A stretch of DNA of 39,636 nucleotides from Nitrospinae bacterium RIFCSPLOWO2_12_39_16 (GCA_001805005.1 MHDO01000152.1:1-39636); one strand, 5' to 3'. Counted from the stretch's first letter, positions 5,722-39,316 are shown. Numbers and translations are program-made. Notes: a model not told the origin generated them from the letters alone.

Positions 5722-7746
5722 CTATTTTGAGTCAGGATGGCATTCTATACATCTGTTATCTTCAAAAGGTTTATGAAGAATTGTATGAAGAAGATTCTTG
5801 TTTTTAGAGAAATGAGACTCGTGACAGGAGGTACAATTCCCCTCCTTTAAAGGAATATTTCCGTGCCGCTGTATAAAACCTTTATCTGTTTTTTCATGAC
5901 AATTTGAGCATAGTGTCAGGTTATCAGACAGCAGCAGATTTTCCTCTTTTGCATAGTGGGGATGGTGGCATTTCAGACACTCGCCTTCATCAACTGGCTT
6001 ATGAATAAAACTGCCAGGGGTCGCCAGTTTATCAGCAATATCTTTATGACAGGAGAGACAGAGGACTTTCACAGACCTCTTTAAATAGCCCTTTATCTTG
6101 CCTCCATGAGAATTATGACATACCATACATTTACCCTCTGATAAAGGGATATGGGTATGTTTCATGGCGGCAAGCCCTACCTTTGTATCTTTATGACAGC
6201 CATAACAGAGTTCCGGTTCGTCATCTATCAATTGGTTATTTCTATTGCTGGCATGCGAGTCATGGCAGCTATAGCAATTCCCATCTTTATATGGACCATG
6301 CACAGCATCCTTTCCCCATTCCTTTTCCATATTGGTATGGCAGTTAAAACAAAGGTCCTCCTTTTTTTGCGTCAGCATCCCGTCTATATTAGAGCCATGA
6401 GGTTTATGACACTTTGCACAATCCCCATTTTTTAGCGGAGTATGGGTGCTAAATTTCTCAGATTTTTTCTTTATTTCATTATGGCACATATAGCAGATAT
6501 TCCCTTTCTCTGCAATAAGGCTATTTTCAAAGTCCGAGGCATGAGGGGAGTGGCATGCAATACATTTTCCTTCAGCAACAGGAGTGTGCGAAACCGTATT
6601 TTTAAAATTATCTTCTTTGTGACATTTGTAGCAAAGCATTCCGCCTGCATATTTCAGCCCCTTCTCTTGTTCGGAGGCATGGGGGTCGTGACAATCGGAA
6701 CAATTGTTTTTAGTCAAAGCCGTATGAATATATTTTTTCTTATGTTCTTTTTTTTGTTTTTCATGACAGCTATAGCATAGTTCTTTTTCAGGGCTTCTCA
6801 ATCCATTCTTATAATCTGATGCATGCGGACTATGACAAGACAGACATCTGCCATCTTTGACTGGGGCGTGGATATGTGCTTTTTGAAAGGACTCTTTCTT
6901 ATCAGAATGACATTTATAACATAGGGCATCTCCTTCTATCTTCATCCCCAGAGGTAATTTTGAGTCTGAGGGATTATGACAGGAACCGCAATCTAATTCG
7001 GCAAACGGCTTGTGAATATTCTCTCTTAACAGCTTTTCATTTGACGAAGAATGTGATGCATGGCAACTTGTACAATCACTATCTTCAAAAGGGTAATCCT
7101 TATGGGCTGCTTTTAACTCTATATTCACCTTGTGACAGTCCAGACATAATTGTCTAACAGGCATGGTGAGCCCGTGGGGACTATCCGATGAGTGAGGGTC
7201 ATGACACTTTATACATCCCTCTTCCTGGGGTTTATGAATCTTTTTTTTCTGATAATCCTCTTTACTGTGACAGTTAAAACAAAGGTCATTCCCAGCTATG
7301 CGTAATAATTTCTTTGTCTTTGATGAGTGTGGACTATGGCAGATTAAACAGTCTTTCTTTTTTAACGGGTCGTGCAGGTTTTTCTTTTCAAGCCTGACTT
7401 TATCTTTTTCATGGCAGTTATAACACAGGGCAGACCCTTGATTTTTTAAATAAAGTGCACCTATGGCACCATGAGGGATGTGGCACCCTTCACAAAGCTT
7501 CTGCGTTACAGGAATATGCTGACTCTCATCGCTGGAAAATTTCTTGTATTCTTTCTGATGGCAGTCAACACATGTCCTCCTTACAATGGCCACCTTTGGA
7601 GGTATGCAACTGTAAGACGCAAGGAGCAGGAGACAAGAAGCAAGAAGCAAGAAGCCAGACTTTTTGCTTCTTGTATCTTGTTTCTTACATCTTGTTTCTT
7701 GCATCTTGTTTCTTACCTCTTGTTTCTTACTTCTTGCCTCTTGCAT
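5722..7746 (-). CDS. 26-haem c-type cytochrome of the doubled-CXXCH family
   Basis: I count 26 CXXCH sites in 674 aa. They come as alternating pairs (LCYxCH, then about 20-25 residues, then GxCxxCHxPHxS), the doubled-CXXCH pattern of exported multihaem cytochromes. Extra histidines (CHSPHAS, HTPxxxGxC) supply axial ligands. It should act as a periplasmic or surface electron wire. The N-terminus (about residues 1-50) is encoded by repeat DNA: MQEARSKKQEVRNKMQETR and so on, then a hydrophobic stretch with possible lipobox cysteines at C38 (LLASC) or C47. Translation may really begin at the internal Met 15. Its start overlaps the PPIase stop by 20 bp. Genes for a small anchored protein and cytochrome b follow, suggesting it accepts electrons from that membrane unit. 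Confidence 0.92.
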   Translation of the reverse strand: MQEARSKKQEVRNKMQETRCKKQDTRSKKSGFLLLASCLLLLASYSCIPPKVAIVRRTCVDCHQKEYKKFSSDESQHIPVTQKLCEGCHIPHGAIGALYLKNQGSALCYNCHEKDKVRLEKKNLHDPLKKKDCLICHSPHSSKTKKLLRIAGNDLCFNCHSKEDYQKKKIHKPQEEGCIKCHDPHSSDSPHGLTMPVRQLCLDCHKVNIELKAAHKDYPFEDSDCTSCHASHSSSNEKLLRENIHKPFAELDCGSCHNPSDSKLPLGMKIEGDALCYKCHSDKKESFQKAHIHAPVKDGRCLSCHSPHASDYKNGLRSPEKELCYSCHEKQKKEHKKKYIHTALTKNNCSDCHDPHASEQEKGLKYAGGMLCYKCHKEDNFKNTVSHTPVAEGKCIACHSPHASDFENSLIAEKGNICYMCHNEIKKKSEKFSTHTPLKNGDCAKCHKPHGSNIDGMLTQKKEDLCFNCHTNMEKEWGKDAVHGPYKDGNCYSCHDSHASNRNNQLIDDEPELCYGCHKDTKVGLAAMKHTHIPLSEGKCMVCHNSHGGKIKGYLKRSVKVLCLSCHKDIADKLATPGSFIHKPVDEGECLKCHHPHYAKEENLLLSDNLTLCSNCHEKTDKGFIQRHGNIPLKEGNCTSCHESHFSKNKNLLHTILHKPFEDNRCIECHPDSK
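7619..7745. repeat. CAAGAAG/CTTCTTG heptad-like repeat forming an inverted pair
   Basis: Left arm: tandem CAAGAAG units at about 7634-7655. Right arm: CTTCTTGTATCTTGTTTCTTA units continuing to 7745. The two arms are complementary and could fold back. The whole element is translated on the minus strand as the basic and hydrophobic N-terminus of the 26-haem cytochrome. Confidence 0.85.
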
Positions 7747-9445
7747 TAAGACCTCTCATAAAAGATTCATTTATTCTAATCTTTGAAACTGCCCTTAATT
7801 TCATAATATAATCAGACATAAGCTGTTCATACTTTTTTTTACTCAAGGATTCAATAATGCTATCTCTAACAGATTCAAAATCTCTCAATTTCCCTTCCTC
7901 TTTCCCAGTGAGCTTAATAATAATAAAATCTTTTTCAAAATTAAAAGGCCCATATATCTCCCCTACCTCCATCTCATTTAGCCCATCTTTAATATCAGGA
8001 GGCATCATATTAACATATAACCAGCCTGTATCTTCCCCTTTTGAGACAGCTGAAGTATTAGATATATCAGAGGCAGTTATATCAAAATCAGCACCCTTTT
8101 TTAACTCGCCAATAATCCTCTCCGCCTTTTCTTTTTCCTTAATCTTAATTGTGCTCATTCTGATTTTTTCAGGTTCTTTAAAGAGCTTTTTGTTATCATC
8201 ATAATATCTTCTGATTTCCTCATCATCAACTTTAATTGCAGCAGCGATAATTTTATTTTTAAAAAACCTGTTTAAGACAGCCTCCTTTGTAATTAAGAGC
8301 GAATATCTAAAGTCTTCATTTTTCTCATAATTTCTTCTATCAGCTTCCCTGTCAAGAAGCCTCTGGTTAATTATACTGTCTATAACTAATTTTTTTAATC
8401 TATCCATCTCATCTTCATCTCTTCCCAAAGGTGCTGACCTCAAGCGAGCCAGAACTTCATCCCTTTTGATATCTTCCCCTTCTACAGTCGCCGCAATCCC
8501 TTTTCCCCCATCAAATTCCTCATCCCTTTTGATGCTTTTCAGTATATCTTCATTGATGGTAATTTTTGCCGTTTCTATTAATTTTGTCAGGTATTCCCTG
8601 TTTTTTTCTCGTTCTTTCTCACTAAAGATTAACCTCTCTGTTCTTTTTTTCTCCTTGTCGGAAATTGTTTCAGCTGGCACTCTTCTCTCCTCTAATTTGA
8701 TTATATGAAAACCATGCGCTGTATTGATTAACCCGCTTATTTCCCCTTCTTTCATGCCAAAGGCTGCATCCGCTATCTCCTTTGGCAATTCATCTCTCCT
8801 TTTAAAACCCACATCACCGCCTTTTTTCTTTACCCCATCAGAGTCTTCTGATTCCTTCTCTACGAGATTGGTAAAATCAGCTCCTTTTTTTAATTCGCCA
8901 ACAATCTTCTCTCCCTTCTCCCTTTCTTTTGTAAAGAAATGACGCAATCTCACTGATTCGTAAAGGATCATATAACGATTCTTTATTTCTTCATCTGTTA
9001 CCTTGACCTTATCAATAACTTCTTCTTTTTTTAGCATATATAGAGAGAGATTGAGTCTGTAGAGTTTATAATCCCCTGTAAATTCAGGTGTCTTATCAAG
9101 ACCTATCTTAATCGCCTCCTGAACAATCAGCTTATCATCTATCATCTCATTTAGTATTTTGAGATAGTCAACATTCGCTATATCTATATGCATCTTATCC
9201 CCTATATCCTTTATTGTATGAAACCCTTCAAGTCTTTTTTTGAAATCATATTCTGTAATTGTATCATCATTTACTTTTGCAACATACCTATCTCCCTGTA
9301 GCCAGAATGTCCCTCTACTACAACCGCTCAAAAAACAAGAAACAAGAAGCAAAAAAAAAGCTGAAAGCCTTAAACTTTGAGCTTTGAACCTTGAACTGTC
9401 TCTTGCCTTTATGCCCTTGCATCTTGCATCTTGCATCTTGTTCAC
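7727..9445 (-). CDS. Peptidyl-prolyl isomerase lipoprotein with two parvulin domains (PpiC/SurA type)
   Basis: A 572-aa lipoprotein: hydrophobic LSAFFLLLVSCFLSGC with lipobox cysteine C42. A SurA-like N-terminal chaperone region has the helix VDYLKILNEMIDDKLIVQEA. Two parvulin-type rotamase domains follow. The first, about 165-265, contains RLRHFFTKE, GGDVGFKRRDELPKEIADA and HGFHIIKLEE. The second, about 415-525, contains RMSTIKIKEKEK and GEDTGWLYVNMMPPDI and ends in FIIIKLTG. It should assist folding of exported proteins at the membrane. It overlaps the 26-haem gene by 20 bp and is overlapped by 4 bp by the gene before it, so it sits inside the operon. PPIase genes recur beside nanowire-cytochrome genes in known metal reducers. 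The first 27 residues derive partly from repeat DNA. Confidence 0.88.
   Translation of the reverse strand: MNKMQDARCKGIKARDSSRFKAQSLRLSAFFLLLVSCFLSGCSRGTFWLQGDRYVAKVNDDTITEYDFKKRLEGFHTIKDIGDKMHIDIANVDYLKILNEMIDDKLIVQEAIKIGLDKTPEFTGDYKLYRLNLSLYMLKKEEVIDKVKVTDEEIKNRYMILYESVRLRHFFTKEREKGEKIVGELKKGADFTNLVEKESEDSDGVKKKGGDVGFKRRDELPKEIADAAFGMKEGEISGLINTAHGFHIIKLEERRVPAETISDKEKKRTERLIFSEKEREKNREYLTKLIETAKITINEDILKSIKRDEEFDGGKGIAATVEGEDIKRDEVLARLRSAPLGRDEDEMDRLKKLVIDSIINQRLLDREADRRNYEKNEDFRYSLLITKEAVLNRFFKNKIIAAAIKVDDEEIRRYYDDNKKLFKEPEKIRMSTIKIKEKEKAERIIGELKKGADFDITASDISNTSAVSKGEDTGWLYVNMMPPDIKDGLNEMEVGEIYGPFNFEKDFIIIKLTGKEEGKLRDFESVRDSIIESLSKKKYEQLMSDYIMKLRAVSKIRINESFMRGLNARGKK
9333..9441. repeat. 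Mixed CAAGAAG / CTTGCATCTTG dispersed repeat
   Basis: ACAAGAAACAAGAAGC at the left and three CTTGCATCTTG-like units at the right, with GAGCTTTGAACCTTGAAC between. The same units occur in the element at 7619-7745. It encodes the first 25-30 residues of the PPIase on the minus strand. Confidence 0.75.
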
Positions 9446-13072: not shown

Positions 13073-14566
13073 TTATTTTACTGAAACAATTCCATAAGGC
13101 TTTTTCCCTACTATAATTATCTTTTCTACAACTTCGGAGACAGGATTTATAAGTATCACCCTGTTGGAACTATAATCAGTGATATAAAGATGGTTTCTTC
13201 CTTCATCAATTGCTAGTCCTATCGGCTTACTTCCGGCATTTATGCTTCTCGTAATGACTGCAGACGACGGAATTAAAAAAGAAACCTGTCCAACACCATA
13301 ATTTGAAAGATAAATTCTGTTGTATTTTTCAGAATAAATTCCCTTTCGCGGATTAATACCTGCCTGTATTCTCCCCTTAATAGTTTTTGTAACGGTATCT
13401 ATAATTGTAATACTATCTGATTCGGCATTCAGGACATAAATGTTATTTCTTACAACTACAACATCTACAGGTGTTCTGTCAACATTTATGGTAGCCTTTA
13501 CTTCATCTGTTATAGAATCAATAACTGAAATGGAGTTTGACCCGCTGTTGGCTACATATACTTCCTGCCTTTCTGGATTGGCGGATACTCCAAGCGGAGC
13601 ATTGCCAACCCTTACACTCTTTATCTGAGATTTCATAAATGTATCTATAGCAGTAACATCATTAGACCCCCGATTCGTAATATATAGTTTTCCATGATTT
13701 CTCCTGTCGCTGTATGGAATCATAGCCATTTCAACAGGTTCAATTCCTGAACTAAATTGTATCCTGTCCCGGACAAAGTCCTGCGATGTATCAATAATTG
13801 ATATGCTATTTGACCTGGAATTTAAAACATACAACCTCTCTTGTTCCTGGCTTAAAACAAGACTTGTAGGATTCTTTTCTACACCTATTACACCAACTAC
13901 TCTATTTTCAAACCTATCAACAACCGATACATAATTTGAACCGCTGTTTGCAACATATAAAAGCAGTGTCTTTGGAGAAACTCTTTGAGATTCAATAGTT
14001 ATTGAAGGGCTAAAAAGATAGTTATTTGAGACAGATTTATCAGGTTCCCATGTTAAAAATATAGCCCTACTCTCACTGCTTCCTATACTTATAATATCCC
14101 CTTTGAGTTCTACCTCTCCATTCGGTTGAGGCAGTGCCAGTGTATGAAATTTTTCATTTCTCCTTACACTGGCATTGGAGATACGTATCATAACCCTGTC
14201 ATACTCTCCTTCCATTATATTTGATTCAGTTAACAGAACCTGATCCTTTGCTATATCAAGGGACCTTATTACAAATGGTTTTTCTGATAATTTAATCCAT
14301 CCCCCATCCCTTTGTTTGATTTCAATCTTCTCAATTGTAAAATTTATATCCTGCTGGTTAGAATTTGGAAGATAAAGGTAAAAAACCAATGTCCCCTCTG
14401 ACACCTCTTCTCTTTCAATCTTCATCCCTGTACAAGAGATAAGGATAAGAAGTAAGAAGCAAAAAACCAGAGGACAGAGGACAGAAGACAGAAGACAGAC
14501 TTCTGACTTCTGTCTTCTGACTTCTAACTTCTGGCTTCTGACTTCTAACTTCTGGCTTCTATTCAT
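13073..14566 (-). CDS. YVTN beta-propeller lipoprotein with N-terminal DUF4382-like domain
   Basis: A 497-aa lipoprotein. Residues 1-24 are translated repeat DNA (RSQKLEVRSQKLEVRRQ). The hydrophobic segment then ends LISC with cysteine 45. About 55-200 looks like DUF4382 (VFYLYLPNSN, IEKIEIKQRDGGW, YDRVMIRISNASV). From about 203 on, repeats of the YVTN type build a propeller: LLYVANSGSNYVSVVD, LYVLNSRSNSISIID, LYITNRGSNDVTAID, VYVANSGSNSISVID, LYITDYSSNRVILIN. Such propellers lie at the cell surface and mediate protein contacts. Its start overlaps the trihaem gene by 8 bp. It may scaffold or anchor the cytochromes; no catalytic motif is visible. Confidence 0.85.
   Translation of the reverse strand: MNRSQKLEVRSQKLEVRRQKSEVCLLSSVLCPLVFCFLLLILISCTGMKIEREEVSEGTLVFYLYLPNSNQQDINFTIEKIEIKQRDGGWIKLSEKPFVIRSLDIAKDQVLLTESNIMEGEYDRVMIRISNASVRRNEKFHTLALPQPNGEVELKGDIISIGSSESRAIFLTWEPDKSVSNNYLFSPSITIESQRVSPKTLLLYVANSGSNYVSVVDRFENRVVGVIGVEKNPTSLVLSQEQERLYVLNSRSNSISIIDTSQDFVRDRIQFSSGIEPVEMAMIPYSDRRNHGKLYITNRGSNDVTAIDTFMKSQIKSVRVGNAPLGVSANPERQEVYVANSGSNSISVIDSITDEVKATINVDRTPVDVVVVRNNIYVLNAESDSITIIDTVTKTIKGRIQAGINPRKGIYSEKYNRIYLSNYGVGQVSFLIPSSAVITRSINAGSKPIGLAIDEGRNHLYITDYSSNRVILINPVSEVVEKIIIVGKKPYGIVSVK
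14441..14564. repeat. ACAGAAG/CTTCTGA repeat forming an inverted pair
   Basis: AGAGGACAGAAGACAGAAGACAG on the left faces CTTCTGACTTCTGTCTTCTG and further CTTCTGG/CTTCTAA units on the right. The element is translated on the minus strand into the first 44 residues of the propeller lipoprotein, including part of its hydrophobic segment. Confidence 0.85.
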
Positions 14567-15227
14567 TTTTTATTTCTTTCACCTTATCCTTTTGTAACCG
14601 CTCCATATGACACCTGTAGCATTCCCTTAAAGGAAAGGCTATTTTACCATGACACCTGCCGCAATACTCTCCACTTAAAATTTTCCACATGGTCATCTCA
14701 GGATTACCACCCTTCTTTTGAACAAAAATACCCGGATGACAAATTTTACAACTTAACCAATATGTATGAATACTGTGAGGAAAGATGACATCCGTCATAA
14801 ATTCATTCTTAGCCTTGATTGATATAAGAAGGTCAATGGGATCATCATCTTCTTGCAAACCATCAATTGATGAAAGCGGAGAAATTATACCACTCCTCAC
14901 AGCCCCTGCCCAGTCAATTAAATCGTATTTGTCCCTTGGTAGAAGTGTAAGAGGAATAGCCCTTTGCTGGAGGAGAGATTGTGCTGTCACCTCATTCGCA
15001 GTTTTATACTTATATTCGTAAAACTGCTCTATGTAGCTATTTAAGGAGTTAGAGGAAGGGTTATCCTGATTTTCAACTGCATAAGATGGTGATATTAAAA
15101 AACAGATACTTAATTTACCACAGAGGACACAGAGAAAGAGGAAAGAACAAAGACCCGACCTTAGCCGCGAAGGACACAAAGGTAAAAATAATTTTAGGGT
15201 TTTTAATCTCTGTGCTCTCCGTGCCAT
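14559..15227 (-). CDS. c7-type trihaem cytochrome (222 aa)
   Basis: Three CXXCH sites lie in the C-terminal third: CKICH, CGRCH and CYRCH, with FPHSIHTYWLSCK before the first. This is the c(7)/nanowire-type trihaem domain (VIFPHSIHT..., GEYCGRCHGKIAFPL). The preceding region (PRDKYDLIDWAGAVRSGIIS) is shared with the 249-aa protein at 22434-23183 (LDKYKLINWAQVVRDKTIDP), so the two are paralogues. The first 45 residues, including FLFLCVLCG, are translated palindromic repeat DNA (15116-15226). The signal peptide probably ends at PSYA before VENQD. It should be a periplasmic electron carrier. Its stop overlaps the next gene by 8 bp. Confidence 0.85.
   Translation of the reverse strand: MARRAQRLKTLKLFLPLCPSRLRSGLCSFLFLCVLCGKLSICFLISPSYAVENQDNPSSNSLNSYIEQFYEYKYKTANEVTAQSLLQQRAIPLTLLPRDKYDLIDWAGAVRSGIISPLSSIDGLQEDDDPIDLLISIKAKNEFMTDVIFPHSIHTYWLSCKICHPGIFVQKKGGNPEMTMWKILSGEYCGRCHGKIAFPLRECYRCHMERLQKDKVKEIKNE
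15116..15226. repeat. Imperfect palindrome ACCACAGAGGACACAGAG ... CTCTGTGCTCTCCGTGCC
   Basis: The arms lie at about 15117-15136 and 15208-15225, with degenerate repeat sequence between. It belongs to the common class of CACAGAG palindromes and is read through as the N-terminus of the trihaem cytochrome at 14559-15227. Confidence 0.8.
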
Positions 15228-15306: not shown

Positions 15307-16887
15307 CTAAAAATCGCTCTCCCCCCATCCAAATTGTAATTTTTCATTTCTCTTTGCAAACTTTTCCTTTTCTTTCTTTGAGAAAGCAATTGTCTGGTTT
15401 GAGGTTTTAAATATGTTTCCTGCTTTATCCACAGCCTTAAAAGCATACATTATCTTTCCACCACCTGCTGTCACTTCTCTGTTTTCAGATATTAAAGGTA
15501 TAATTAGCTTTTTAGCTACATTCCCTCTTCCGCTTAAATTCTTTATAATTTTTGAGTCCTCGCCCAATATTACAAATTCCCACTTCTCCATCATTTCATT
15601 TTCTTCGTAGTCAAGGTTAAAAATTACCACATCATTATCATCAGTTGCTTCAGCCTCTATTTTTACTGCCGGTGGTGTTGCATCCAGTATTATCTTCTTT
15701 TGAAAAACCCCTGCATTTCCTGCAGTATCCCATACCGTAAGGTTAAGATAATATATTCCATCATCATTTCTACTTCCTGCATTATTCTCACCTCTCCACA
15801 TAAGCTGCATAGGTAATGCACCAAATCCCCTCTCTCCTCTCACAAATTTATTTTCTTTATCCACTATTTCAACTTCCCACTTTTCTATAACCTCATTTGT
15901 TTTAAGGGTAAATATAATTGAATCCTTTTTTACAAGCCCGGCAGTAACATCTTTGTCTGTTGAAACTGTTACTTCTGGCGATACTGTATCAACCTTTACC
16001 TCCCCTACTGAAGGAAAATGAGAAATCTTATCATCAGACAGCACAGCAATAATATCTACAGGATATAAGCCATCTGCATAGGGAACGGTAATCTCGCCAT
16101 CATAATAATCACCATCTCCATCCTTCAAATCAAATTTCATTTCACCTATATAAGCCTGAACCTTCACTATTTTTTCTACAACAGATATAATTTTGACTGA
16201 TACCTTTGCAGACTTCCCCCCTCTGACAATTGCGGGAGAAATCTTTAAGCTCCCTATCTCAAAAAGATTATCATCTCTATTTTTCAAGAGATATTCCCTT
16301 GGTATCCCACCCACAATATTGCTAACAGCTACCGATCCAAGCTGAACAATCAATTTCACTCTACCAATACCAAGCAAGCCGGCAAAATCGCTTCCAGCAT
16401 AGGAAACGGTGTCCATCCATATTATTGAACAATCCCTTGTCCCAACAAGGCGAAGAGTTAATCCTACATATATTTCATTACTAACATTGGAATACTGGTC
16501 AATTGAACCTAAAACCACCGCATCAACTCCAAGCTCACGATTTAACTCAAGCGTTGTTATTCTGTCAATAAAACTCGTATTCCTAATTCTTCTCTTGGTC
16601 AAAAATTTATCCACATCTTCATATGGAACCAATTCAAACCCTCTTTTTTCAAGTTCTTTCTGAAGCAATGAATCTATAATTGCACGAGCATCTAAATTTC
16701 CAGAAATGTTTGCCATAGGAAGGACCACAATCCTATCTATTTTATGAACATCCTTTCCCACTTCTGCCTGAACAGCGGATGCAAAAAACAGTAAGCAGTA
16801 GGCAGTAAGCAGTAGGCAGTAAGCAGTAAACAAGAGATAAGTGGTCTTGCTTCTGGCTTCTGGCTTCTGACTTCTATCTTTTATCAT
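15307..16887 (-). CDS. CsgG/TolB-N-like exported protein with C-terminal Ig-like (FlgD-type) repeats
   Basis: A 526-aa protein. The signal peptide TTYLLFTAYCLLLTAYCLLF ends at VQA before EVGKD near residue 41; its hydrophobic core is translated repeat DNA. About 50-200 is the CsgG/TolB-N-like domain: IDRIVVLPMANISGNLDARA, LGVDAVVLGSIDQYS, LVGTRDCSIIWMDTV. Residues 225-500 hold Ig-like repeats: a domain starting ISPAVVRGG-like, then DTVSPEVTVSTDK with GIYYLNLTVWDTAGN, then DATPPAVKIEAE with MYAFKAVDKAGN. The Ig-like part should be extracellular or periplasmic and adhesive. It lies 10 bases downstream of a hexahaem cytochrome with ribosome site GGAGA. It may link the export apparatus to filaments, an inference from domains and position. 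Confidence 0.75.
   Translation of the reverse strand: MIKDRSQKPEARSKTTYLLFTAYCLLLTAYCLLFFASAVQAEVGKDVHKIDRIVVLPMANISGNLDARAIIDSLLQKELEKRGFELVPYEDVDKFLTKRRIRNTSFIDRITTLELNRELGVDAVVLGSIDQYSNVSNEIYVGLTLRLVGTRDCSIIWMDTVSYAGSDFAGLLGIGRVKLIVQLGSVAVSNIVGGIPREYLLKNRDDNLFEIGSLKISPAIVRGGKSAKVSVKIISVVEKIVKVQAYIGEMKFDLKDGDGDYYDGEITVPYADGLYPVDIIAVLSDDKISHFPSVGEVKVDTVSPEVTVSTDKDVTAGLVKKDSIIFTLKTNEVIEKWEVEIVDKENKFVRGERGFGALPMQLMWRGENNAGSRNDDGIYYLNLTVWDTAGNAGVFQKKIILDATPPAVKIEAEATDDNDVVIFNLDYEENEMMEKWEFVILGEDSKIIKNLSGRGNVAKKLIIPLISENREVTAGGGKIMYAFKAVDKAGNIFKTSNQTIAFSKKEKEKFAKRNEKLQFGWGESDF
16789..16880. repeat. GCAGTAAGCAGTAGGCAGTA tandem repeat
   Basis: Tandem 7-mers (GCAGTAA/GCAGTAG) at 16789-16829, then TTCTGGCTTCTGGCTTCTGA units to about 16875. 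On the minus strand it encodes the signal-peptide core YCLLLTAYCLLF of the 15307-16887 protein. The same DNA recurs at 17941. Confidence 0.9.
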
Positions 16888-16897
16888 CTCGTCTCTC

Positions 16898-18043
16898 CTA
16901 TTGATTATGACACTGCTGGCATGTATCTCTCATCATTGTGCCAGCCCCCCCTGATGCTGTCGGTGCCCCAAATATTAAATTAGAATGATTTGGAGAACCA
17001 TGCGACCTGTGACAGGTAAGACAAAACGGCTGTTCATCGCCGCCACTGTCAAGCCCATCCGGATTTATAGCACGCACCCGATTAAAACCAGTTATTGATG
17101 CAAAATTTGCCGGGACTGTATGCCCATTTCCAACCCCAACTGAAATCTTACCTACAGGATGACGAACCCATTGAGTATCTGTCCCGCTATCGCCTGTAAC
17201 ACTGCCACCCAACTTCCCACTTCCATAACCAATATCATCACCACCATACCCGTTAGAATTATAAAATTTTACATGACATTTACCACAAAAACCAGCTATT
17301 TGTTTAGTACTACTCCTAAATGTCATGTTAGATGTGGAATATTGGTTGGCAGGGTTACTCCCATCACAATTCCCATCTATAACCGCCTGTGCAATTGAGG
17401 ATATACCATCCCATACTCCATTATTATAGGTTACTATTTTATATGAATCCGCTGGTGTGCTATCTCCCGGTTCTCTGAAAGAGGGGTCTAATGGTTCGGG
17501 CCTAAAATTTCTGTAATTACTATTTCCATGCTGGTCATGGCAGTATATACAGCTGAAAACAGGACCGTATTTTGTCTGTGCTGTAGTCCAGTCACTCCCT
17601 ACATAACCCGGTGGCTTTATCCCTGTCAAATCAACTCCGATACTGTGCCGTTTATCTTCGTCAGGTGTTCCGCCTGTATTAAAATCACCTGCCGAAGCGT
17701 TATAAATAGGACTAAACAGGTCAGGTGCACCGATATTAATAGGATCTCCATCATGACAGTATTTACAAAGATTAACCACTGAATCTGCCCTAAGTAACTT
17801 TTCGTAAGTATTTATTCCTCCACTATAAATCAAAGATACACTACCCTGCGTGCCATGCATAACATGACACTGGGCACATGCAAGCGTAGTTTCAGCAGGA
17901 ATACCTGATTTATGATAATCTCCGGCAAAGGAATCATTAGCAAACAGTAAGCAGTAGGCAGTAAGCAGTAAGCAATATATAGTTTTTTTCTGCCTACTCC
18001 ATACTGCATACTGCCTACTTCTATTTGTTTCTTGTCTTTTCAT
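16898..18043 (-). CDS. OmcS-like hexahaem c-type cytochrome (1)
   Basis: A 381-aa exported protein with six CXXCH sites: CAQCH (56-60), CKYCH, CIYCH, CGKCH, CLTCH, CQQCH. Spacing and flanking motifs follow the filament-forming cytochrome OmcS: a first haem CHVMHGTQG, a third CHDQHG, a fourth followed by VRHPV, a fifth CHRSHGSPN, and a sixth almost at the C-terminus (CHNQ). In OmcS the second His of the first motif binds a haem of the next subunit; here it is H63. The signal peptide ends at SFA (residue 40) and its hydrophobic core is repeat-encoded. The gene begins 1 base after the NHL propeller gene and shares clear motifs with the second hexahaem protein at 20583 (HSIG, FSC..CHD.HG, RHPV). 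Confidence 0.85.
   Translation of the reverse strand: MKRQETNRSRQYAVWSRQKKTIYCLLLTAYCLLFANDSFAGDYHKSGIPAETTLACAQCHVMHGTQGSVSLIYSGGINTYEKLLRADSVVNLCKYCHDGDPINIGAPDLFSPIYNASAGDFNTGGTPDEDKRHSIGVDLTGIKPPGYVGSDWTTAQTKYGPVFSCIYCHDQHGNSNYRNFRPEPLDPSFREPGDSTPADSYKIVTYNNGVWDGISSIAQAVIDGNCDGSNPANQYSTSNMTFRSSTKQIAGFCGKCHVKFYNSNGYGGDDIGYGSGKLGGSVTGDSGTDTQWVRHPVGKISVGVGNGHTVPANFASITGFNRVRAINPDGLDSGGDEQPFCLTCHRSHGSPNHSNLIFGAPTASGGAGTMMRDTCQQCHNQ
17941..18030. repeat. GCAGTA inverted tandem repeat
   Basis: Left arm CAGTAAGCAGTAGGCAGTAA at about 17945-17964, right arm TGCCTACTCCATACTGCATA at 17991-18010 plus CTGCCTACTT. It is translated on the minus strand as the N-terminus and signal-peptide core of the hexahaem cytochrome and repeats the element at 16789. 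Confidence 0.9.
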
Positions 18044-18044
18044 C

Positions 18045-18923
18045 TTATTCCACCTTCTTAAACATACTAACCCTTCCCCTGCCTTTTTCTACTACATAAA
18101 AGTTCTCTCCCTTAAAATCAATGCCAAGGGGGTAATAGAGGTTTTCCCTGGAATTTCCATAAATACCAAATCCACTCAGTCTTTTTCCTTCATCATTAAA
18201 ACCTGTCACCCGATGCTTAAAGGCATCAACTACCCATATCATACCGTCATCATCGACTTTTATTCCAGAAGGCATAGAAAAATTCTGTTCCCCTTCCCCA
18301 ATATGCCCAAAACCTGCAAGGTATTCGCCTTTTGTATCAAATATCCTTACGACAGGGTCAGCACTCATTACCGACACATAAATCTTTCCACTCTTTGCTG
18401 CAATACCGCCAATTGATTTAAACAGATTTCTGCCGCCAAAGTTAAATTGATATTTCCCATCTTTATCAAATACACAAATCTTTAAAGAATTTCTATCAAC
18501 AACAAGAAAACCTACCCCATCCATAACCGCCATCTTACCTGGTGTAAATCCCTCATAAGGAGGCTCAATGCTTCCAACCTTTTCTCCCCTGATATTAAAA
18601 ATCTCTATATAATTTTTACCTTCTCCACTCATATAGATATAATTATTTGAAACAAAAATATCAATGGGGGATGATACCCCCTTTTCTTTTCCAAACCGAA
18701 AAACAGGCGTCCCATCAAGTTCAAAAATATAGATATTGTTCCCTCCATTATCAACAACATATAGTTCATCATCTTCTATAAAAATTGAGGATAATCCCTC
18801 AAATCTATATTCATCTGAAAATCTGTCAATAGCGCTGATAAAATAGAAACTCGAAGGTGCGGATTCTACCTTAGCTATAAGAATAATCAGAATTCCACAT
18901 GTTAAAAAGAATCTTTTCATCAT
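18045..18923 (-). CDS. Exported NHL-repeat beta-propeller
   Basis: A 292-aa protein with a signal peptide (RFFLTCGILIILIAKVESA) and about six NHL-type blades: GLSSIFIEDDELYVVDNGGN, FGKEKGVSSPIDIFVSNNYI, VVDRNSLKICVFDKDGKYQF, MPSGIKVDDDGMIWVVDAFK, YPLGIDFKGENFYVVEKGRG. It has no haem and no catalytic residues. Propellers of this kind bind partner proteins and occur beside nanowire cytochromes in metal reducers. It is the first gene of the operon that continues with the hexahaem cytochrome 1 base later. A sigma-54 promoter candidate lies about 100 bases upstream (19036-19053). Two adjacent Met codons start the protein, and no strong ribosome site is seen. Confidence 0.85.
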   Translation of the reverse strand: MMKRFFLTCGILIILIAKVESAPSSFYFISAIDRFSDEYRFEGLSSIFIEDDELYVVDNGGNNIYIFELDGTPVFRFGKEKGVSSPIDIFVSNNYIYMSGEGKNYIEIFNIRGEKVGSIEPPYEGFTPGKMAVMDGVGFLVVDRNSLKICVFDKDGKYQFNFGGRNLFKSIGGIAAKSGKIYVSVMSADPVVRIFDTKGEYLAGFGHIGEGEQNFSMPSGIKVDDDGMIWVVDAFKHRVTGFNDEGKRLSGFGIYGNSRENLYYPLGIDFKGENFYVVEKGRGRVSMFKKVE

Positions 18924-27082: not shown

Positions 27083-28243
27083 ATGGAAAAAAGAACCGTT
27101 TTTATTATAGATGATGAGGAGATTATAAGAAAGACCCTCTCTATCCATCTGACAAAGGGAAATTATTCGGTCATTCAGTCAGCTGGCGGCTCTGGGATAT
27201 TTGAGGAGCTAAAAAATAACAATTATGAGCTTGTTATCAGTGATATCAGAATGCCTGAGGTTAATGGGCTGCAGATATTAGAATATGTCAAGAAGAATTA
27301 TGCTAATATCCCTGTCCTAATCCTCACAGGTTTGATGGATTTCAATATTACCATTGAAGCCATGAAAATGGGTGCCTTTGATTTCCTTATAAAACCAATT
27401 ACGAAAGAGCACCTCTTAAATACTGTCCAGAACGCACTTCATAATAGAGACCTCCTTATTCAGAATAAAAAATTAGAAAAAGAAAATCTTGAATATCGCA
27501 CCATTCTGGAAAATAAGGTAGAAGAGAGAACAGAGCAGCTCAACAAAAAGACTGTTGAACTTGAAAATGCTTATGAAACACTGCAAAAAATGAATTTTCA
27601 GATGGTAAAGGTGCTTGCTGAGGCAATTGAAGCAAAAGATAAGTATACGAGGGGGCATTGTGACAGAATGCGTTTCATCTGCCTTAAGATTGGTGAATTA
27701 CTTGGTATTTCAGGAGGGGAAAGGACTGACCTTGAATTTGCCGCCATCCTGCACGACCTTGGTAAAATTGGAATTGCCGATTCAATCTTAAACAAGATAG
27801 ACACCCTTAATGAAAATGAGTTTGATATGATAAAAGAACACTCTTTAATTGGCGAGAAGATTATCTCGGAGATAAGCACATTTAAAAATGTAAGCATGAT
27901 TATAAAACATCACCATGAAAATTATGATGGAAGCGGATATCCGGGAGGACTCAAAGGCAGCCAGATCCCCCTCCTCTCACGAATTATTGCAGTAGCGGAT
28001 GTATTTGATGCGCTGACAAGTAAACGCCCATATCGTGAATCCCTCTCCATAGAGAGTGCCATTTCTGAGATAAAAAATATATCTGGGACAAAATTGGACC
28101 CGTCTATTGTCCAGCTTCTAATCAACAACAAAGAGTACACAAAACTAAAACCTAATCAGCCACAGAAACACAGTGACACAGAGGAAAAAAATAAATTATT
28201 AAAAAAATCTCTGTGTCTCCATGCCTATGGCAATTCTCTGTAA
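27083..28243 (+). CDS. HD-GYP response regulator (c-di-GMP phosphodiesterase)
   Basis: A 386-aa cytoplasmic regulator. The receiver is about 1-120 (IIDDEE, D54 in SDIRMP, K at KPI). A coiled-coil linker with KVEERTEQLNKK follows. The HD-GYP domain (about 170-345) carries RGHCDRM, ILHDLGKIGIAD, HSLIGEKII, HHHENYDGSGYPGGLKG and AVADVFDALTSKRPYR. Such enzymes hydrolyse c-di-GMP, linking a signal to biofilm, motility or surface behaviour. The last 30 or so residues (QKHSDTEEKNKLLKKSLCLH) are translated palindromic repeat DNA, not part of the domain. The kinase gene starts 15 bases later and is the likely phosphodonor. Confidence 0.93.
   Translation: MEKRTVFIIDDEEIIRKTLSIHLTKGNYSVIQSAGGSGIFEELKNNNYELVISDIRMPEVNGLQILEYVKKNYANIPVLILTGLMDFNITIEAMKMGAFDFLIKPITKEHLLNTVQNALHNRDLLIQNKKLEKENLEYRTILENKVEERTEQLNKKTVELENAYETLQKMNFQMVKVLAEAIEAKDKYTRGHCDRMRFICLKIGELLGISGGERTDLEFAAILHDLGKIGIADSILNKIDTLNENEFDMIKEHSLIGEKIISEISTFKNVSMIIKHHHENYDGSGYPGGLKGSQIPLLSRIIAVADVFDALTSKRPYRESLSIESAISEIKNISGTKLDPSIVQLLINNKEYTKLKPNQPQKHSDTEEKNKLLKKSLCLHAYGNSL
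28159..28231. repeat. CACAGAG palindrome read into the HD-GYP C-terminus
   Basis: GCCACAGAAACACAGTGACA on the left, CTCTGTGTCTCCATGCCTAT on the right. It is of the same class as 15116 and 39276 and adds a C-terminal tail to the HD-GYP protein. Confidence 0.8.
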
Positions 28244-30700: not shown

Positions 30701-30797
30701 AACCACAGGTTTTTTAAACCGTTTAAGCCGTTTAAACCGTTTAAACTGTTTGAACCGTTTTTAATGAATCTGTGTTAATCTGTGTCCATCTGTGGTT
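30701..30797. repeat. Palindromic element with five 9-bp tandem units
   Basis: AACCACAG at 30701-30708 pairs with CTGTGGTT at 30790-30797. Inside, 30717-30761 is five 9-bp units: AACCGTTTA, AGCCGTTTA, AACCGTTTA, AACTGTTTG, AACCGTTTT. It sits between the kinase and CheR genes. Confidence 0.85.
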
Positions 30798-38136: not shown

Positions 38137-38213
38137 AGAAGGGGTCAAGGATACGAGGATTCAGGTGGAAAACACTTGAACCCATGGACCCTTGAATCCT
38201 TGAACCCTTTGTT
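38137..38213. repeat. TCAAGGAT/ATCCTTGA palindromic repeat
   Basis: GGGGTCAAGGATACGAGGAT on the left and CCCTTGAATCCTTGAACCC on the right fill the gap between cheA and cheB. A related GGGTTCAAG unit lies at 35359-35367 before cheA. Confidence 0.75.
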
Positions 38214-38224
38214 TAATTTTCTAT

Positions 38225-39316
38225 ATGATTAGAGTATTGATTACAGAAGATTCGCCGACAATAGCAGAGATTATAAGGATGACCCTTATCAAGGATAAGG
38301 AGATACAGGTCATTGGGTGGGCGAAAAATGGCAAAGAGTGTATAGAGATGACTAATAAATTAAAACCGAATGTTATTACAATGGATATCCGCATGCCTGT
38401 AATGGACGGTTTTGAGGCAACCAAGCAGATAATGGCAAAAACTCCCACCCCGATATTGGTCTTTAGTGCCTCTATAAATGATGACTTAAATGTTACCTTT
38501 AATGCACTAAAATTCGGGGCATTGGATGTCCTTGAAAAGCCCAGAACACTGACAGCCGGCAAGTCATCAGATGATATGGCAGAGGAACTCATACAGCGAA
38601 TTAAAATTGTATCAAGGGTCCGCCCCTTCAAAAAAACTTTTAAGCCAACTCCTCTGGAAAGTAAAAAACATCGTCCAAAAAGAATATCTATTTCTTCCGA
38701 TGGAGACAGCATCTTAATTATCGGCGCCTCAACAGGTGGGCCGCCTGTATTAAATTATATCCTAAATAAGCTGCCTTCAAAATTTCCTTTGCCGATTCTG
38801 ATTGCACAACATATAGCACGTGGATTTATTGAAGGACTGGTTACATGGCTTCAGGATGGATGCTCAATCAAAATTAAAATTGGCGAAAACAACGAAACCG
38901 TTGAAAAGGGTAAAGTCTATTTTGCACCTGACAATTATCATATGGGAATTACAGATAACAAAAAAATATTCCTGAGTAATGCCCCGCCAATTTCGGGACA
39001 CCGTCCTTCAGTGAATTTTTTAATGGAATCCTCTGCATCCGTATATAGAGAGCACTGTATGGGTATAATACTTACAGGCATGGGAAGGGATGGTGCCATG
39101 GGGATGATGGCAATAAAAAAGGAAGGGGGTTTTACCCTTTCACAGGATATGGAGAGTAGTGCTATCTTCGGTATGCCAAAGGTTGCAATTGAGAGTGGTG
39201 CTGTTATGAAGGTGTGTAATATTGAGCAGATTCCTAACGAGATAATATGGTGGATTCAGAAAAAAAACCTAATAAGCCACAGAGACACAGAGGCACAGAG
39301 AAATAAAATAAGTTAA
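38225..39316 (+). CDS. cheB: CheB receptor methylesterase
   Basis: CheB removes receptor methyl groups when phosphorylated. The receiver is about 1-120 with D54 (TMDIRMPVMDG), followed by a linker. The methylesterase triad is visible: S169 in GASTGGPP, H196 in IAQHIARGF, D289 in GMGRDGAMG. The tail SHRDTEAQRNKIS is translated palindromic repeat DNA; the family normally ends near the preceding residues. It pairs with CheR-TPR in this cluster. Confidence 0.95.
   Translation: MIRVLITEDSPTIAEIIRMTLIKDKEIQVIGWAKNGKECIEMTNKLKPNVITMDIRMPVMDGFEATKQIMAKTPTPILVFSASINDDLNVTFNALKFGALDVLEKPRTLTAGKSSDDMAEELIQRIKIVSRVRPFKKTFKPTPLESKKHRPKRISISSDGDSILIIGASTGGPPVLNYILNKLPSKFPLPILIAQHIARGFIEGLVTWLQDGCSIKIKIGENNETVEKGKVYFAPDNYHMGITDNKKIFLSNAPPISGHRPSVNFLMESSASVYREHCMGIILTGMGRDGAMGMMAIKKEGGFTLSQDMESSAIFGMPKVAIESGAVMKVCNIEQIPNEIIWWIQKKNLISHRDTEAQRNKIS

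Follow-up and report, generated by a model that had tools for sequence, protein, structure and literature searches.

The repeat-bearing gene cluster

The window, meaning the whole stretch of DNA analysed here, is a single 39.6-kb contig from a metagenome-assembled genome (MAG) of 1.88 Mb that is 73% complete (G000). Its closest named relatives are the Nitrospinota MAGs UBA9963 (G001), NC_groundwater_1752 (G002) and RIFCSPHIGHO2_02_FULL_39_82 (G005), the last of these from another genus. All comparisons were made with MAG sequences of uncultured Nitrospinota; genes were predicted with a home-made caller and their starts are inferred, some with a weak Shine-Dalgarno sequence. The minus strand of the window carries a cluster of cytochrome and envelope genes, several of which have tandem 7-base repeats at their 5' ends, and all window features described in this and the next two paragraphs lie on that strand.

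The gene for a CsgG/GNA1162-like exported protein of 526 aa (15307..16887) has orthologues in G001, G002 and G005, and its mature part matches the Pfam GNA1162-like family with E=1e-5, 0.2 bits under the curated cut-off. Its leader comprises, in order, an AGGAG Shine-Dalgarno sequence (16895-16899), ATG, an array of the purine-rich heptamers AGAAGCC/AGAAGTC (16845..16885) encoding the putative n-region RSQKPEARSK, an array of the pyrimidine-rich heptamers TTACTGC/CTACTGC (16786..16832; GCAGTAA/G on the other strand) encoding the putative h-region LLFTAYCLLLTAYCLLF, and the gene's own c-region ASAVQA with a signal-peptidase-like site (16765..16782). Orthologues have the similar c-regions TFAQA, PPVQA and SFAQA. 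In G001 the start of this gene (locus L048) contains a run of Ns inside the signal-peptide array, which suggests that such arrays also break assemblies. The neighbouring gene (16898..18043), which adjoins the end of an upstream NHL gene, encodes a hexahaem c-type cytochrome of 381 aa with six CxxCH motifs (Paired_CXXCH) and is organised in the same way: AAGG (18053-18056), ATG, AGTAGGCAGTATGC..., with the purine-rich heptamer arm AGTAGGCAGTATGCAGTATGGAGTAGGCAG (17990..18019) providing the n-region RSRQYAVWSRQKK from GCAGTAT-type units that contain no in-frame stop, then an array of TTACTGC units (17939..17977) providing the h-region IYCLLLTAYCLLF, and the gene's own c-region ANDSFA (17924..17941), with cleavage predicted before GDYHKSG. 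The c-regions found among the hexahaem orthologues are ANDSFA, SVFSFA, ANYSFA and PPAHA. In the G002 orthologue (L043, about 18100) a PERSRR-type segment within the n-region MKKTETCPERSRRDRRQ seems to be a repeat of a second type, adjoining the heptamers. As the original prediction held, the GCAGTAA/G repeats encode an identical core in these two exported proteins: their longest common peptide is exactly YCLLLTAYCLLF, residues 23-34 in both, when the number of shared 12-mers expected by chance is about 4e-10. Both ATGs are preceded by their Shine-Dalgarno sequences and lie 5' of the arrays; if the leaders are translated and cleaved as drawn, which we infer from the sequence, the mature proteins would begin with EVGKDVHK and GDYHKSGIPAETTLACAQCHVMHG.

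Four further N-termini had been attributed to repeats, and this is borne out for three of them as heptamer arrays. They are those of a cytochrome with 26 CxxCH motifs by count (5722..7746; purine arm 7660-7744 in the n-region, pyrimidine arm 7614-7659 encoding FLLLASCLLLLAS), a SurA-like peptidyl-prolyl isomerase (PPIase) lipoprotein (7727..9445; purine arm 9416-9440 encoding MQDARCKG, pyrimidine arm 9329-9355 encoding FFLLLVSCF) and a propeller/DUF4382 lipoprotein (13073..14566; purine arm 14498-14560, pyrimidine arm 14446-14499). The fourth, a trihaem protein of 222 aa (14559..15227), owes its FLFLCVLCG stretch to the 8-base repeat CACAGAGA/TCTCTGTG and not to a heptamer, while retaining the purine-first layout (octamer-type purine arm 15206-15227, pyrimidine arm 15118-15141). 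The usual traits of Sec signals, namely a charged n-region, a hydrophobic h-region and an AxA-like or lipobox c-region, are recognisable by eye in the focal proteins and in most of the N-termini listed.

Other repeats are scattered through the window. An octamer-type element, GCCACAGAGACACAGAGG..., lies at 28140-28198 and 39257-39315, where two proteins have their C-termini built from it: an HD-GYP-like response regulator (tail QKHSDTEEKNKLLKKSLCL) and a CheB-like protein (tail HRDTEAQRNKIS). The 8-base family thus rewrites C-termini too. Arrays also lie between chemosensory genes at 30713-30794 and 38171-38209; the units in this region are TTTAAACCG (9 bases, five copies), AATCTGTGTC (10 bases) and AACCCTTG (8 bases, five copies). 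At 851-2601 there are two small gene pairs which, judged by eye from their translations, resemble toxin-antitoxin systems (HEPN/nucleotidyltransferase and Phd-like with PIN domain).

Abundance and placement of the arrays

A search of G000 with three copies of TTACTGC, allowing up to three mismatches, returned 70+68 matches, against a single match for the reversed pattern. Arrays of period 7 number 80 in 440 kb of this genome, while each of the other periods between 4 and 12 yields 0 to 11; in the first 257 kb there are 50 period-7 arrays, where replicates of a first-order Markov control average 0.2. G005 has 58 such arrays in 303 kb. All six genomes of the family contain the AGAAGNN array pattern; among the 77 genomes searched in the phylum, just one further genome has it. 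An assembly artefact can be rejected, because arrays occupy matching places in relatives that were published separately (UBA9963 and the groundwater and RIFCSP MAGs). In G003 a single succession of units, AGAAGCAAGAAGTAAGAAGCCAGAAG, is repeated on both strands at numerous unlinked sites, a distribution that points to the copying of entire arrays more than to slippage at each site separately.

The placement of the arrays was assessed in samples of G000 and G005 from which the contigs behind the original observation had been left out. Pooled array density per 10 kb is 4.5 in the first 150 nt of genes and 3.9 between genes, falling to 1.15 in the middle of genes and 0.12 in their last 150 nt; 39 arrays lie at 5' gene ends and one at a 3' end (p=7e-11). 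In random samples of G002 and G003, by comparison, arrays at 5' ends numbered 2 of 15 and 4 of 20, with no enrichment against a uniform null. The enrichment at 5' ends that had been anticipated for exported genes holds for this genome and G005, and is unequal across members of the family.

Genes with 5' arrays were also classified from Pfam matches, scored solely on the part of the protein after the repeat to avoid circularity. On the author's own reading of Pfam names, 31 are clearly envelope proteins and five cytosolic, against 8 and 16 among the classifiable members of a control set of 30 random array-free genes (p=4e-5). The domains represented include DegP, SurA-like PPIase, a Wza-type export protein, an EnvC-like M23 peptidase, YfiO-like, LptE, TolC-type OEP, several cytochromes c, PD40 propellers, FGE-sulfatases, Lnt and TlpA-like proteins, among others. 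The cytosolic proteins are NuoB, MurD, GlgC, a member of the UDG superfamily and a probable SufD, the last by sequence recognition only; in these five genes the arms are hydrophilic or may be non-coding leaders, and there is no sign of export.

Turnover and replacement of signal peptides

Where the mature parts of orthologues are well conserved, as in the CsgG-like protein, the hexahaem cytochrome and DegP, different heptamer arms are found at the matching position. The CsgG-like orthologues of G002 and G005 have other heptamer families in this slot, MPEDRRQKTEDRRQKTEARSKKSVLCSLSSVLLFLVSCFF... and MKMQNAKCKMQNAES...FLSSCFLLLTSCFLLFAPPVQA respectively. Between G000 and G001 the signal peptides of the hexahaem cytochrome and DegP are only 45% and 65% identical, compared with 80-100% for array-free signals. 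Turnover is not uniform, since two of the four array signals compared, those of the propeller and 222-aa proteins, are conserved at 93-94%. In three congeneric genomes the DegP leader consists of MARAQDTSGSHYRR, a purine arm, a pyrimidine arm and HAQERRTP or a close variant; DegP of G003 has the same arms with a different start.

Comparison with orthologues lacking the repeats, which the original prediction had proposed, could be made for four proteins and gave ordinary signals throughout. DegP has an ordinary signal without arrays in other families (G008, G014, G015); the array-free hexahaem cytochrome of G014 begins with the ordinary signal VLRNTILIIAIIGMSILFLIPPAHA followed by GDYHKS; the array-free 26-haem orthologue of G005 has an ordinary lipoprotein-like signal; and the array-free propeller orthologue of G014 has an ordinary lipoprotein signal. 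These orthologues indicate that export of the proteins predates the repeats. The comparison supports the view that the repeats replaced existing signals, each gene apparently keeping its own cleavage site; of the two alternatives in the original prediction, that repeats had created export signals or replaced them, it is the second that stands.

In some genes a longer composite cassette can be recognised, running from the Shine-Dalgarno sequence and ATG through a purine arm, spacer and pyrimidine arm to the end of the h-region. It is near-identical in G000 and G005 and precedes unrelated mature domains (propellers, an FGE-sulfatase and a protein without a Pfam match). This best-defined cassette is restricted to one gene cluster per genome in three genomes, which rules out a genome-wide mobile cassette, and no fixed element ends were seen in the alignments made. 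In G012 and G014, which belong to another Nitrospinota family, the n-region of the CsgG-like protein (L035 and L036, around 1430-1500) contains the repeat CCGCAGCACCGCAGCACC, translated as HHRSTAAPQH; this points to a similar process running in parallel there with a different repeat.

Polarity, coding and folding of the arms

The order of the arms is almost invariant. Among adjacent arms with clear opposite polarity, 57 pairs are purine-then-pyrimidine and one is reversed (43 and one, respectively, at 5' ends), and when six genomes were searched by pattern, each had the purine-first order and none the reverse. All 14 pairs away from 5' ends are likewise purine-first, so that the order must be at least partly intrinsic to the element and selection on coding cannot be its sole cause. 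On the coding strand, purine arms are found at codon offsets below 8 (35:14) and pyrimidine arms at offsets of at least 16 (39:5; p=4e-9). Purine-rich heptamers encode K, R, Q, E and S, and their complements L, F, C, S, T and Y. The choice of unit also differs between arms, in a test that is partly circular because arms were counted within open frames. Of the units in coding purine arms, 31 of 99 are AGAAGTC, against 1 of 96 in pyrimidine arms, where its complement would bring TGA into frame; of GCAGTAA, which contains TAA, pyrimidine arms have many copies and purine arms few. A frame with charged n-like and hydrophobic h-like stretches is present in 86% of the purine-pyrimidine elements at 5' ends and in 7% of random genomic segments. 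Most pairs away from 5' ends contain stops, and any signal-like frame is found in 21% of them; arms between genes nevertheless have the appropriate composition, with a mean hydropathy of 1.13 for pyrimidine arms and +0.135 charge per residue for purine arms.

At the RNA level, strong hairpins are predicted for three of the four window elements tested (z from -5.1 to -9.1), and the leader of the CsgG-like gene folds no better, to a significant degree, than its shuffles (z -1.4). Complementary purine-pyrimidine pairs are present between genes too. By a shared-hexamer test, 22 of the 43 pairs at 5' ends are non-complementary, and with about half of the pairs in this state a hairpin is insufficient as the sole reason for the pairing of the arms.

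Proposed origin and role of the repeat-built signals

The interpretation that we consider probable is that paired heptamer arrays specific to this family have repeatedly landed in, and now supply, the Sec signals of proteins that were already exported. It draws on the positions, frames, polarity and unit choice of the arms, on orthologue turnover and on the replacement of ordinary signals, all read directly from the genomes. The elements would be dispersed short repeats, usually of two heptamer arrays, purine-rich 5' and pyrimidine-rich 3', which have inserted downstream of the start codon and ahead of the signal-peptidase site; the purine arm would then form the n-region (K/R/Q/E/S) and the pyrimidine arm the h-region (L/F/C/S/T/Y), with the c-region remaining the gene's own. 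Arms may land anywhere, surviving mainly between genes and within signal peptides. Since a signal peptide requires charge and hydrophobicity but no given sequence, it would be a safe harbour for such repeats, and selection on these two properties presumably filters the insertions. Once in place, the arms could expand, contract or be swapped for other heptamer families, so that signal peptides would turn over much faster than the mature proteins. The arms most likely arise, change and spread by slippage together with recombination or conversion among dispersed copies. It is conceivable that changes of 7 nt, which shift the downstream frame, also provide on/off phase switching.

A different account would place the function in the RNA, with 5' hairpins tuning translation or mRNA stability and the encoded residues incidental and merely tolerated in signal peptides. 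The strong hairpins predicted for most of the window elements make such a role possible, as do the complementary pairs between genes, and for the TAACTGA heptamers found just 5' of starts in Beggiatoaceae a translational role has been proposed (PMC4679880). Set against this are the non-complementary half of the 5' pairs and the unremarkable folding of the CsgG-like leader. The unit variants in the two arms, moreover, differ in such a way as to keep the coding strand open, and cytosolic genes are largely avoided, so we regard the RNA-level account as unlikely, with an additional regulatory function of the hairpins still conceivable. Much less credible is the suggestion that translation starts downstream of the arrays, leaving them as untranslated leader sequence, and that gene calling alone produced the hydrophobic stretches. 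Some candidate starts do have a weak Shine-Dalgarno sequence, and plausible starts after the array exist in a minority of genes (for example GlgC in L099). The hexahaem gene, however, has no in-frame ATG, GTG or TTG between codon 1 and codon 62, its first CxxCH being at residues 56-60, and the suggestion is rejected for that gene. It is improbable for the others: a Shine-Dalgarno sequence and ATG lie 5' of the arrays in several orthologues despite their differing arrays, mature parts begin directly after AxA-like motifs with the array-coded core preceding, and many of the envelope proteins concerned would lack a signal without the arrays.

The original prediction went further, seeing in the repeats a route by which formerly cytosolic genes were recruited to the envelope through newly created signals. 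The hydrophobic pyrimidine arms and net positive purine arms between genes would offer ready-made material for this. Yet no cytosolic protein gaining export was found among the cases examined, every array-free orthologue found (hexahaem, 26-haem, propeller, DegP) has an ordinary signal, the domains of the array genes are typical of the envelope, and the cytosolic genes with arrays give no sign of export; we consider recruitment of this kind scarcely believable. Returning to the supply of signals to proteins already exported, it is tempting, though distinctly more speculative, to regard the repeat family as a dispersing, orientation-indifferent donor of signal peptides and a continuing source of fresh export signals. 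Because the arms are purine-first on either strand and a heptamer array yields one heptapeptide cycle whichever frame is read, insertions close to a start would, in either orientation, tend to read as an n-region followed by an h-region. If this were true, the family would be renewing its secretome's signal peptides at a far higher rate than it changes its proteins. For annotation there is a practical warning, in that N-termini of the RSQKPEARSQK...LLLTAYCLLF type, which resemble junk or start errors, are probably genuine leaders.

Comparison with known systems

In-frame repeat insertions, as in the Rickettsia palindromic elements (RPEs), and heptamer repeats (PMC4679880) are both already known. 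The TAACTGA heptamers of Beggiatoaceae are dispersed tandem 7-mers in many copies, lineage-restricted and often near starts, and bacterial heptamer repeats can give stop-free translation on one strand and tolerated insertions at protein ends (MacGregor 2015, PMC4679880; Mrazek 2007, reviewed there). The 2015 paper reports no pattern in the function of downstream genes, and no signal-peptide role was noticed in it. The Nitrospinota arrays resemble these repeats in being dispersed tandem 7-mers with period 7 far above chance. They differ in that their units are many (AGAAGNN, GCAGTAN, CTCATTG and others) with no one predominant sequence, and in that their arms are paired, purine-rich first and pyrimidine-rich second, forming the putative n- and h-regions of envelope genes. 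The STRR repeats of cyanobacteria are also heptanucleotide simple-sequence repeats.

RPEs are short palindromes retained in frame within many unrelated proteins; they are conserved single sequences without tandem heptamers and, to our knowledge, are not concentrated in signal peptides. The Nitrospinota arms, unlike RPEs, are variable heptamer arrays, and in roughly half of the pairs at 5' ends the two arms are not complementary. In the coding palindromes of Nematomorpha mitochondria both arms encode functional peptide while nucleic-acid pairing is kept, but these are perfect inverted repeats within conserved respiratory proteins, with neither tandem heptamers nor signal peptides (PMC6649704). 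No report of repeat-derived bacterial signal peptides on such a scale was found in the open-access literature. Random peptides in laboratory libraries can replace secretion signals and, since only charge and hydrophobicity matter in them, an array is able to take a signal peptide's place; what sets the Nitrospinota genomes apart from such libraries is that natural repeats appear to do so repeatedly. Signal peptides vary widely and tolerate random sequence, but one can seldom see where new ones come from. In these genomes repeats apparently supply signals again and again and orthologues preserve different states of the leader, which makes it possible to measure how signals arise and turn over.
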